Below are positions 46,901 through 55,900 of a stretch of DNA of 64,000 nt, one piece after another. The position numbers and the translations under genes are program-made. The notes under the pieces are model-generated. The model was not told the origin of the DNA and searched no databases. It saw only the letters and a list, made by a program, of their open reading frames with translations. The first letter of the stretch is position 1, and every line of letters begins with the position of its first letter. This DNA is from Ianthella basta (lineage: Eukaryota > Porifera > Demospongiae > Verongiida > Ianthellidae). The stretch lies in assembly GCA_964019415.1 (NCBI GenBank), contig OZ025876.1, positions 4,459,293 to 4,523,292 on the forward strand. Reading direction: 5' to 3'.

Positions 46901-49900
46901 AAAGCTGTCTCCACAATGCAGTGCGGGAGGGGCACCCCAAGGTGGTGCGGTACCTCATTGAGGAGGGAGGGTTTGACCCCAATCTCAGGAACAGTGTAAG
47001 TCAATGCAGTATTGCGCACATCCTGGCGCTCTTATGGTTATGCTCTCACAATCCCCATATGTGCTTGTGAAAGATGCTTCTTGAGGTGGAAGGACTGTGC
47101 AGCAAGCATGCACAGTAGAAGAGACAGCAAGACATCAGACACACTTTGCACTTAGCCTCAACGGTGTGAGGTTTTGGCTGCAGCATGGTGGTCAACCTGT
47201 AACTGTGCAGTATTGCAGGGAAGGAAGGACAAATGTTCACTGCCTGGATGAGTAGCTTGGTGACTGAAACTGTGCAATAGAGTATTGGCCATGGGTTTGA
47301 TTCTAGCTGTGTTGCTAGTTTTCCTTTCTTCCCTCCCCTAAGAAGCGGTATGAGCTAACAAATCATCAATGCTATTCGATTATGCATCAAACTATACCCT
47401 GCTCAAGTTGCTCGAGTGTCACTTCAATCCGCATCTGAATTTGCAGTCATTTTGATGGCTTGTTTGTGGCAGCATTTCTTGATGTAGAAAAATTAATGTT
47501 ACTGACAATGGTCTTTCTCAGAGGTATAAAAGGGTTCTCTGTCATTTGGCATTTGCTTTGCTCTAATCTAGCTGTGTATGTGCTGTGGGATTGGTTCATT
47601 AGTTGGTAACAGGCATCTCCCACATGCATCTGTCATGTCATTGCACTTTTAGGAGGACATAGACTGCTTCCTTCTGGCCTGCCATAACAAGCTGATTGTC
47701 GTCAAGGAGCTAGTGACCAGATTCAGAATGGATCCACATGTGACGAATGAGGTGTGTGGTTTTGTGTGCGCATGTGTGTGTTTGCAATATGCTGTACTAT
47801 ACTATACTGTACTGTAGTGTTGTATTGTGTATTACTGTAATACCTGGTTTACATTAAAACATTTTCACCTAAATTTGGAGCAGTTTTGCTGCATTTGCAC
47901 TTCCCTTTTACTTGCAAACGGGTGAAAATGATCTGGAAAGCAGACATTTTCAAATATGGCTAGTTACCCAGACTCTTTTTGAAGAGGATGTCGTATTATT
48001 TGGGTTTAGACGATTGTGTTTAAGGCGTACCAGAATGATGCTACCCACAGCGAGAAAGATGATTTCTGTGCTCTTAGGCCTTATTTCAAGCATTTTAGTT
48101 TTTCTGCCACTATTACCGCTATGTAGTCTGGTGCGATTGTCTTACTGTAAATATTGGAAAATCAGAATGCTATCCAGAGCAATTAATCTATATGTTGTAA
48201 TTATAGTGCACTTAGCCAGCCTATATGCTTTTACTTTATACTTTTTCACGATGCGTGGGGATGCGGAGCGCCCGAGGGCAAGTGAAATAAAAAGCATATA
48301 GGCCAGCTTAGTGTACTATAATTGGCTTCTTGTTTTATAAGTTGAGAAGAATGTTGCCGATTCGTGGAACCTTTGAATGTTTCGTTGCCAAGCACGTAGC
48401 AGATCAGAAGAAATGCGCAAGAACTCAAAAGGATTCTTCTCTATAAGTGCTGCTCTTGTTTTCTCAGTGGCTGAAGGAACTTGGTACGTAGCTACTTTGA
48501 CTACAATGAAGCATACGTGAAGAGCATTTCAGCGAGTCAACATCACCATTTCAACAACTTTAGTATCTGATGCTACCCAACAACGCAATACAGGTGTGCA
48601 GTAGATAGTTTAATACACCAGGCCTTACCAAGTTTGGACTGCTTGTATGAAAGCATTATTTGCAGTCGCTGTAGCTACAAAACGGTGAAGAGGCAGGCAC
48701 TGTAAGCATGCAGAAAGGCCCTGCTTGCACGATTCGAAGCGTTTCAACTAGTTGCAGTGCGGTGTAGCAGTGGGCGGAATCCTGTTGCAGTCAGTACAGA
48801 AATGGACGCTTCCATTTGTTTGATCCTTGGATGAGCACTAGCATGCCCACAAGCAAGTCATGTGTAATCATGGCTTGTCATGAGCATATGCTGCCATGGC
48901 ATGTTTCATCAACAAAGTGGCACATGCACATGCTGCGAGAAAGTGGCACTTATAATGCGGACAGCAGCTCCACTGCAAGAAAGGTGTGAAAGATGAACAG
49001 CAAAACTTGTCTTTATACAGTATAAACCACAGTTTTCATCTTTGTTGTATGGCTTCATCATGCAACAAATGAATGAAAACGTTTTAATGTAAACCAGGCC
49101 TAAGTGTTGTTTTTAAGTGTACATTTTACAGATGTTGAGTATTATTGGCTTTAACTGTTGTCACAGCATGGTTGGACAGGTGTCCTTATTGCAGCAAGAT
49201 TTGGGTTTACTGACATGGTCAGGGAGTTGATCACCAACTATGGGTGCAACAGGAATGCTGTGGATGAAGTTAGTTAAGTCTGGTAGCTATAGCTTGCATT
49301 GTGATTTGTGTGATTATTGAACAAACTCTATATGGTATGTTTTGGCTGAAGTGTGGTTTCAATGCCTTGCACTATGCTGCTGGAGCTAATCATGTTGAGA
49401 CTGTGAAGGCACTGGTTGGAGAATTTGGGCTGTCAGTGACCCGCAGAGACAATGTGAGCTGAACCTCAATACAGTTGCAATACAGTTGCAATAATTGTAT
49501 GAGAGTCCTATGTATGTACTAGAAAAAATAAACATTTTCTGCAATGATTATAAGAATATATACCCCGTTGCCATGGCAACCGCGCGAAAATATATCGCGT
49601 AAACAAGCCAGCCGGGATATAACAGGAGCTAAGAAGCATATATATGCACAGGGGCGCTTAAATCCTGTTATATCCCAGCCCAAATATGGAAGGTGTGAAA
49701 GATAACAAGGAATTGTTATTGATAACAACAAAGGTGTCAAATCACACCAAAGCACACACACAAATGCAGCAACTTGCAGTCAGTTTTTGGGGCGCCGAAG
49801 GCGCCCCTATATTGTTTTCAGATTTAGGTCTTCGTATGGCTTCATGTTCGTATATATATATATATATATATATATATTTCTGTCATTTTGCAAATGGCGG

Positions 49901-52900: not shown

Positions 52901-55900
52901 TTTCAGCAAATTCCCTGCCAAGGCGAAGGAGCTGGATCTGTTTTACTTACAACCAGTTTCTAAAGTGCCTGCCAATTCCGAAGCTCCATGGTAAGTTTGT
53001 TGCTACTATGTGTCAAGAAGCTGGATGCACACCAAAGACTAACCACAGTTTGTGAGCAACTGGCGTTTCTGGCCTGTTTAGCACAAATGTTCCTGAAAAG
53101 TTTATCAGGGATGTTACTGGGCATCGATTGTGCGCACTGCATCTCTATGAATGCCCAACACTGTAGCAAAAGCAGTCTGTAGCACAAGTACTAGTACAAG
53201 GCAAGAATGCATTTGAGGAGGTGAAGAAAGAGAATTGTGACCCTCTTGCAGTGAAGTCAGTTCCCACACAGCCTTGCAGCTCTGTTGGCTTTCATTCCAT
53301 TTTACTGGACTCAGTAACTGTAATGTAGTGAATGTTGGCACTCTGCCAACTGTGCCAGCTCCAGTTCCTTGTGCCAATTCAGCCAAAGACCTATTCAGGA
53401 GCATCGACATAGATGACTTTTCAAGTCATAGGTACAGACGTACATAGCTAGGCTGACTGAACTGTGATCTCTTGATTTTCATTTGACAAGCTGTTTAGCA
53501 TTTTACTTGGATCTGCTGTACTGTTGAATTTGATCTGCATTACAGCTATAATAGAGAATGTTGTTTCAATTAGTGGGATGACAATTGTTCAGTGACCACA
53601 TCCTGGGTGTAATTTTTCATAACACCTAGGTGTTATGAAGAATAACATTCAGGATGTGGTTGGATACAGGTTATCTCAAGACCCTTTGATCTATAAGCCT
53701 AACCAGGCTACAAAGCCCGTTGAAAGTGGTCCAGGAGTAACTCTATGATAAAAGCTTTTGTCTACTCCCTTTGTTTGTGTGCTACTGCTGTCAGAGAAGA
53801 ATAAGAATATTAAGAAGAAGACAAAACACGGAAAATGTCAAGGTTGTTGTCTGCCAGAGCACACACTTTCACTTGGAATTAATGCTAGTCCTGCATTGTA
53901 CACAACCAATACTTCCTCATGGGTAGCCGTTTTGCTGATTTTTAAGGCTAAGCAGTAATAGCTCTATTTACTGTTTGTATTACAGCATGCAAACAACCAC
54001 TGCCATCCCTACATAGACAGCACTACTGTGCTGTCTGATAATTTTGTAATTGCAGTATGAGGTTCTACTATTGTGTTTAAGTGATCATTATGTATTAGTT
54101 ATAACACCTCCTTGAGGGATGTCGCTGATTTATAAGCACGAGGCCCGAGGGCGCGAAGCGCCCGAGGGGGGAGTGCTTATAAATCAGCGACATCCCTCAA
54201 GGAGGTGTTATAAGTGATTTATTTGCCGAACAAAAGGAAGCGTGGGTGACAGTTAATTGGTTTCTTGCCAAATAAGGAAAGCATTAGGTGAGCGCGGGCG
54301 AATCCAATGCATTTTCATTCTTTAGGAGAGCTAGCTAGCGAGGAGCCAAGCGAGTCAGGCAGAAACGTCGGTACGCTACACCTTCGGAAACCTCTTCCTC
54401 TACGGAGGAGACTTCTTGCCCCGTTCCTGCAACGCGATCGGAGGCGCAAACAAGACTTGGCTGGTGAATCGTGCGTCGGCTGAAGGTTAGCCTGACGGCA
54501 TTGGAGGCGGAGGAGCCAAGCTGGCTCAGAGGAATCTGACGGCGGGACAGGACGGTGGATCGGTGATTAGCTGCGGCGGAACTGACCGTAATCTGAGTCT
54601 GTGTTCGTTCGGTAGCTAGCTAGCTACTTGCGATGTCTTTCCGCCCTGACTGGGTCCTCTCGTGCGGAAGAATCGGCCGCTATCGACGCACAAATTTCGA
54701 CAGCTGCAGTACGGTAGAACGGCAGTAATCAGTTTGCGCAGTTCTTCCAATAGGATGAAGCTTAAGCTTTTGCGTCCTTTTCCATGACTAAAACTACAGT
54801 GGCACCATAGATATTCAAAACCCAACCACATTAATAGTTGTGTAGTGTACGAGTTACTGTATGATCCATTGAACTGTTCTTGTGTTTCATCTGAATGCAA
54901 GCACTTGCATGTGAAGTGTTGTTGCTAATAATTGAATCACAGTGAACCCGATTAGATATTTTCGTGAACCTGATTAGATATTCTTGCTCTCCAATAAGAT
55001 ATAATCACTCTCCTATAAGATATAAGCGCTCTCCAATAAGATATAATCGCTGTCTGATAACAAAATGTCACCTCTCACTGCAAGTAGCACTTTTATAGTC
55101 ACTCAATAAACATAGCAACCACCTAGCAATGGCAAATAACATCATGTACATCCTGTAGACAAGCTGATAGGACTAATATTCTAGAACAGATACAAAAAAT
55201 ACTCTTATTTCTCTTCATTTTACATTGTATTTTATGTAGATTTCACGAATTTGTGTATGGTCAGGATTTCACGTGTAACAAGTCTATAATATTTGTTTTA
55301 ACAAAATGGCACAGATTAATTCACTCAAATTGTAGGACAGAATGGTCTGGTGTTGCTGTACATTGTGAAACTGTCTTCGTGAAACTTCCCCTTTGTGAAT
55401 GCTTTGAGTTTGCACTATTTCATGTGGGTCATGGGCTATCTTAAGAGGTTAAGATCACTTTCATAAGTCCATGTACACATGTGCATGAAATGTATAATGT
55501 TGTCATTTTGCAGGAGGGAAGAACTCCTCTCAGTTTAGCAGCTGAGATGGGAAGCAAGGAGTGTGTGAAGCTCTTGGTCCATGAATGTAGTGCGGACCCA
55601 GAGGAGGTGGACACGGTAAGTTGAGGAAGAGCTGCAGCATTGCCCAAAGTATGACTAACGTCTGTTATTAGGCATGCAGTCTTATAGTGCTAGAGGTGTA
55701 GAGAAATTCTCCACGCTGCATGTCGCATTAGCACACTATCAGCTCTTCTAGCTATTATACATTAGCAAGTGTCTGTGGCCTTTGTGTACACAGGGTAGTT
55801 ATAACATGAAACCTTCACTTTGGGTGAAAGGTGTAGATAACCACTAAATTTTGATCGTTAGCACATTTTGAGGAAGAAGTATGTGATGTCATCAGTGACA

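Follow-up and report, generated by a model that had tools for sequence, protein, structure and literature searches.

Foldbacks at an Ianthella basta locus as probable 3′-end hairpins of three Helitron2-like element families, with inverted cores in some copies

Non-autonomous elements of the Helitron2 and Helentron type (HINE, DINE-1) are, in the available excerpts of PMC3627910 and PMC4067079, short and non-coding, carry short asymmetric or subterminal inverted repeats, have a 3′ hairpin straight after the inner repeat and make no target duplication. In Helitron2 the asymmetric terminal inverted repeats (ATIRs) are described as 8-15 bp long, with the 3′ ATIR immediately upstream of the hairpin (PMC3627910, excerpt). 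For Helraiser, of the Helitron1 type, the excerpted account (PMC4778049) reports that about 90% of activity remained when the stem of the 3′ hairpin was swapped and the loop kept, while a changed loop brought activity to a deletion-like level; the loop is thus important and the stem exchangeable, and the hairpin was proposed as a transposition termination signal. We describe here three foldbacks, A, B and C, in a 64,000-nucleotide stretch of the Ianthella basta genome, which is the window to which all positions refer (G000:C9:4459293-4523292 of a 209-Mb assembly). They are probably the 3′-end hairpins of three non-autonomous Helitron2/Helentron-like families, inserted separately, with hairpins rewritten and flipped by template switching.

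A preliminary description of this window had presented the three foldbacks as copies of one family with a common core and locus-specific arms. Its positions and arm counts were reproduced exactly, the arms matching at 41/41 positions in A, 39/41 in B and 28/32 in C (31/41 when C is scored over 41), and at 23/41 between A and B. Its grouping did not hold, in that each foldback is one end of a separate, longer repeat family. Genome searches with each foldback (40 candidates scored of 569, 540 and 92 for A, B and C) returned matches that extend beyond the foldback on one side, and alignments of 20 regions for A and of 29 additional loci each for B and C gave the following features.

54092..55139, minus strand: element A, 1048 bp, non-autonomous and Helitron-like; 3′ end at 54092, 5′ end at 55139
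54092..54098, minus strand: 3′ terminus CTAATAC of A
54099..54213, minus strand: hairpin A, 115 nt, with 41-bp arms and a 33-nt core
54219..54228, minus strand: 3′ asymmetric inverted repeat of A, TTATTTGCCG on the plus strand, 5 nt inside the hairpin
55130..55139, minus strand: 5′ terminal asymmetric inverted repeat of A
49558..51249, plus strand: element B; 5′ end at 49558, 3′ end at 51249, with a nested repeat inside at about 49784-50657
49558..49567, plus strand: 5′ asymmetric inverted repeat of B, ATATACCCCG, followed by the palindrome GTTGCCATGGCAAC
51114..51123, plus strand: 3′ asymmetric inverted repeat of B, CGGGGTATAT, 5 nt before the hairpin
51129..51242, plus strand: hairpin B, 114 nt, its core inverted relative to the near-identical copy L028
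51243..51249, plus strand: 3′ terminus CTAATAC of B
48194..49003, minus strand: element C, a decayed copy delimited by alignment to other C copies; 3′ end at about 48194
48201..48321, minus strand: hairpin C, 121 nt, decayed; row L039 among the C loci
48327..48334, minus strand: decayed 3′ asymmetric inverted repeat of C, TTCTTGTT, 5 nt inside the hairpin

The same anatomy is found in all three families. A short inverted repeat is terminal at the 5′ end and has an inner partner 5 nt inside the hairpin (TTATTTGCCG in A, ATATACCCCG in B, TTATTGTT in C), and most elements are 0.8-1.1 kb long. A body match to A, of 935-1091 bp and ending at 55129-55148, was present in 19 of the 20 regions of 4 kb that were retrieved; L072 matches element A over 401 bp only, and in L078 an insertion parts the body match from its hairpin. 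The 5′ end of A has 253 genome matches at up to three mismatches (113 + 140), and its reversed control has none. With respect to C, homology of the window copy to other copies ends at about 49003, so that its 5′ end is missing, and TTATTGTT stands at the same 5-nt spacing from the hairpin in 20 of 30 C loci. The repeat nested in element B starts near GGGGCGCCGAAGGCGCCCC and ends near GGGGCGCCCTGGCGCCCC, with small end hairpins visible by eye, and L011, L012, L021 and L032 match parts of it at 93-98%. At L055 (C5:1662399) a 92% match to the B 5′ end (49552-49622) is found next to an element of C type, which may reflect a nested insertion.

The foldbacks, each taken with a few flanking bases and compared with 200 dinucleotide shuffles, fold far better than expected on both strands, with z scores of -18.6 and -16.2 for A, -14.6 and -14.5 for B, and -6.6 and -7.2 for C; no shuffle was as good in any of these comparisons. 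Arm identity was then scored within and between copies of each family. For A, the window and 20 regions supplied 21 hairpins, with L085 dropped for a stem start that was off pattern; the B sample was the window copy and the 29 best-matching loci (n=30), and the C sample 19 of 30 loci, the other 11 having failed the pattern. Identity in A was 0.901 within a copy and 0.982 (left-left) and 0.958 (right-right) between copies; in B the values were 0.941 within and 0.973 and 0.972 between, and in C 0.860 within and 0.859 and 0.881 between. The expectation that arms would be more alike within a copy than between copies therefore fails inside A, B and C alike. In the copies scored, arm identity between copies equals or exceeds that within a copy, which is the outcome that the preliminary description had named as refuting its proposal, and by that criterion each behaves as an ordinary family. 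Its contrast of arms alike within and different between arose because three different families had been compared, and a single foldback family with self-correcting arms is rejected by this comparison in all three.

The core is nevertheless common to the three families, as had been claimed, with identities, for one representative copy per family, of 0.86 (A-B), 0.77 (A-C) and 0.77 (B-C) against shuffled maxima of 0.61-0.65. Stem identity on the same one-copy basis exceeded the shuffled 95% point for A-B (0.65 against 0.53) and B-C (0.60 against 0.53) and fell below it for A-C (0.52 against 0.55); judged from these alignments, the stems do not appear wholly unrelated. A search with the core and stem start found 123 genome places (63 + 60; control 0), 100 of them listed, and among the listed matches at least two further stem types absent from the window were seen by eye. 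A conserved tip on family-specific stems fits what the Helraiser rule would predict, and by analogy we infer that these hairpins may work as that of Helraiser does. The Helraiser hairpin differs in being a 19-bp palindrome of an element with 5′-TC and CTAG-3′ ends, where the present elements have 5′ TT or AT and, in A and B, 3′ CTAATAC. In such a mechanism the hairpin would mark the 3′ end for the transposase, and the tip would be conserved across families while the stem need only pair, so that stem sequences would drift apart from one family to the next but remain conserved among the copies of a family. With the hairpin single-stranded during replication or transposition, synthesis may sometimes jump from arm to arm, which would either rewrite a mismatched arm from its partner or leave the core inverted.

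Inverted cores are found among otherwise near-identical copies. The window copy of B and L028 are identical at 458 of 459 body positions, and their hairpins agree at 86 of 114 positions directly but at 112 of 114 once a core of at least 44 bp is inverted. Across the 30 B copies the loop reads GAA in 21 and TTC in nine, which requires eight changes on the body tree, no fewer than when labels are shuffled (mean 7.9, range 5-9), and the whole core is turned in four copies (the window, L010, L011 and L012), that is, in four of the nine TTC loops; L011 and L012 look like one duplicated locus. Because the B rows are the window and its best-matching loci, flipped copies may be over-represented. Counts of exact patterns, which are independent of that choice but need an exact loop and stem start, gave a TTC loop in 6 of 52 B and 5 of 36 A matches, while none of the 21 readable A hairpins has one. 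In C, L047 shows reversed core flanks by eye and is probably a flipped copy. Among the matches listed by literature searches of limited coverage, there was no title on inverted Helitron end-hairpins. The flip/flop of parvovirus terminal hairpins is a similar case, in which both core orientations coexist; unlike parvoviruses, the present elements give no sign of rolling-hairpin replication, and their flipped forms are a minority. In RNA genes, template switching at hairpins has been proposed to account for multi-base compensatory changes and loop inversions, and the excerpted account (PMC8794818) described the combination of a loop inversion with a compensatory change as extremely rare; the transposon-end families described here provide several cases.

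Most of the point changes seen in the arms fall on one side and stay unpaired. A has 16 changes of this type and no two-sided one, and B has seven, together with two both-sided changes that keep a Watson-Crick pair (L034 at column 28, L010 at column 15) and two both-sided unpaired changes at column 36, the residue expected of a core inversion. Stem columns 16-17 behave differently from this in both families; in their main form each arm reads GA, which makes a tandem GA mismatch. In three of the 21 A hairpins (the window, the plus-strand hairpin of L071, and L078) the right arm has TCAA for GAAAA and pairing at that site is restored, L078 retaining one other mismatch; this substitution corresponds to three changes on the A body tree (21 rows, 20 scored). 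In B the mismatched TGA/GAA is present in 22 of 30 copies, TGA/TCA in four, TTC/GAA in two, and ATC/GAT and TGA/TTA in one each, states which require six changes on the tree and include three paired ones. The suggestion that arms are corrected against each other, or that pairing is selected, was thus borne out in part: snap-back or template-switch synthesis looks, from the aligned copies, real but occasional, and most point changes in the arms stay uncorrected. Selection for base pairing is plausible because the hairpin is a transposon end. Template switching at the hairpin is the best explanation for the loop inversions and the restored pairing together.

With respect to class, the layout is that of Helitron2 in the excerpt of PMC3627910 and close to that of Helentron in the excerpt of PMC4067079. 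The asymmetric inverted repeats lie within the Helitron2 size range (10 bp in A, with 9/10 matching in the window copy, 10 bp in B and 8 bp in C), and the 5-nt gap between inner repeat and hairpin in all three families fits the placement of the Helitron2 3′ repeat. The ends are not those of Helitron1 (5′-TC, CTRR-3′), being 5′ TT in A and C, 5′ AT in B, and 3′ CTAATAC in A and B. Among 18 A and 28 B copies no target duplication stood out clearly, and apparent lengths lay near the all-against-all background, following it closely in B and roughly in A; the apparent duplication was 0 or 1 base in 11 of 18 A and 11 of 28 B copies. The 3′ end is followed by NTA in 18 of 18 A copies and in B by T in 28 of 28 and then A in 27 of 28. 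This nearly invariant NTA may differ from the TT or T-rich target of Helitron2 and Helentron, and the 5′ flank is AT-rich without a fixed T. The hairpins, at 114-121 nt, also differ from the 5-10 bp palindrome of HINE and the 20-30 bp tail of Helitron2. We term the elements Helitron2-like rather than proven members because two details differ and no Rep or helicase is tied to their ends; by their layout they would belong to the rolling-circle class.

Several observations weigh against the assignment. The 3′ inverted repeat lies 127 bp (A) and 126 bp (B) from the 3′ end, as against 20-30 bp in Helitron2, because the hairpins are 115 and 114 nt long. The A 5′ end, unlike that of Helitron2/Helentron, has no hairpin (-1.2 kcal/mol, 134 of 200 shuffles as good, for 50 nt of the window copy including 9 host bases), and the B 5′ end makes a weak case only (-10.5 kcal/mol, 20 of 200 shuffles as good). 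Direct repeats of 4-8 bases occur in 4 of 18 A copies against a background of 13%, three of them TA-rich runs. In favour of it, the genome has 49 Helitron_like_N and 45 PIF1 matches, the latter domain being present also in host helicases, but no autonomous element with these ends was found and none of the matches could be tied to them. A listed hairpin stood within 10 kb of two of the RepHel places, and neither place suits as an autonomous partner: the hairpin at C6 is part of a 1-kb A-type element whose start lies past the helicase match, and the element at C14 begins downstream and runs away from the RepHel match. Against template switching as the cause, recombination among copies might spread paired or flipped cores without requiring a fresh switch in every instance. 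Separately, long open frames of 1435, 2514 and 2581 aa at G000:C1:4809293, C4:6801127 and C14:2481677 match both Helitron_like_N and PIF1 and are, from these matches, possible autonomous elements.

Exchange between copies can be put more strongly, as gene conversion among family members that spreads paired, mismatched and flipped states in place of any copying from arm to arm. As such exchange would predict, loop states in B are distributed over the body tree no differently from shuffled labels, and the same few states keep recurring; yet an inversion must still arise at least once inside a hairpin, flipped loops are found in A and B and probably in C, and the A change re-pairs with the other arm of its own copy at that site in all three cases. 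We regard this account as possible, although template switching within the hairpin is the better supported.

Two further readings concern the nature of the foldbacks themselves. If they were ordinary foldback families or miniature inverted-repeat transposable elements (MITEs) mobilized by cut-and-paste, the hairpin belonging simply to long terminal inverted repeats, they would be expected to be palindromic, at AT-rich insertion sites and in high copy number, all of which is seen, and no Pfam domain was found in the two element reading frames tested. This reading is disfavoured and unlikely, since the hairpin is at one end only and outside the inner inverted repeat, which lies 126-127 bp inside that end so that no terminal repeat is present there, target duplication is not clearly above background, and most elements are 0.8-1.1 kb rather than 115 bp. 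It is very improbable that the foldbacks are transcribed RNA hairpins, such as microRNA or small-RNA precursors, with pairing kept by selection on the RNA. Their long stems and the ankyrin-repeat coding stretches on both sides would suit such precursors, but aligned A and B hairpins adjoin element sequence (with an insertion between in L010 and L078), the five weak Rfam matches (53581-53664) lie off A, B and C, and no Rfam match reached gathering score in 47500-55500, so that nothing tested pointed to an RNA gene.

The two strands of the hairpin are predicted to differ in stability. On one strand the A/B stem mismatch and the mismatch on the loop side form tandem GA pairs between a pyrimidine and a purine, and the loop reads GCGAAGC; GCGAAGC loops and tandem GA pairs are unusually stable in DNA. 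Of the 21 A hairpins, 20 were predicted to be more stable on the GAA-reading strand, with margins of 0.1 to 4.4 kcal/mol (averaging about 1.7 across all 21), and in the commonest form of B that strand was favoured by 3.9 kcal/mol. The predicted preference is reversed in the four B copies with the whole core turned, and its sign is also reversed in the unflipped L030 (0.2) and L036 (2.1), which carry point changes, while L016 is even. In the predicted folds the core mismatches are not all plain tandem GA, larger internal loops being present past the GA site that adjoins the loop. A rather doubtful extension of these predictions is that the 3′ hairpin forms, on one strand specifically, a single-stranded DNA structure which flips and corrects itself during transposition, with the flipped minority as footprints of processing; if true, it would represent flip/flop in a eukaryotic rolling-circle transposon.

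Elsewhere in the window, ankyrin-repeat coding stretches flank the foldbacks (within 45598-47070 and 58799-59596), which is consistent with an intronic position. A further foldback adjoins the end of element B (51250-51373, 85% self-complementary over 124 bp). The palindromic stretch 53544-53715, on which the five sub-threshold Rfam microRNA matches fall, recurs in part in L072 at 87% over 180 bp, and beside element A a different repeat (53714-54045) has 39 other places at 74-81% (40 scored of 1464 candidates).

With one conserved tip on stems that differ by family, these elements resemble a natural version of the Helraiser stem swap. Near-identical copies that differ by a core inversion would constitute a datable record of template switching at hairpins in DNA, in contrast to the rarity of inversions joined to corrections in the RNA-gene study, as far as its excerpt goes (PMC8794818).

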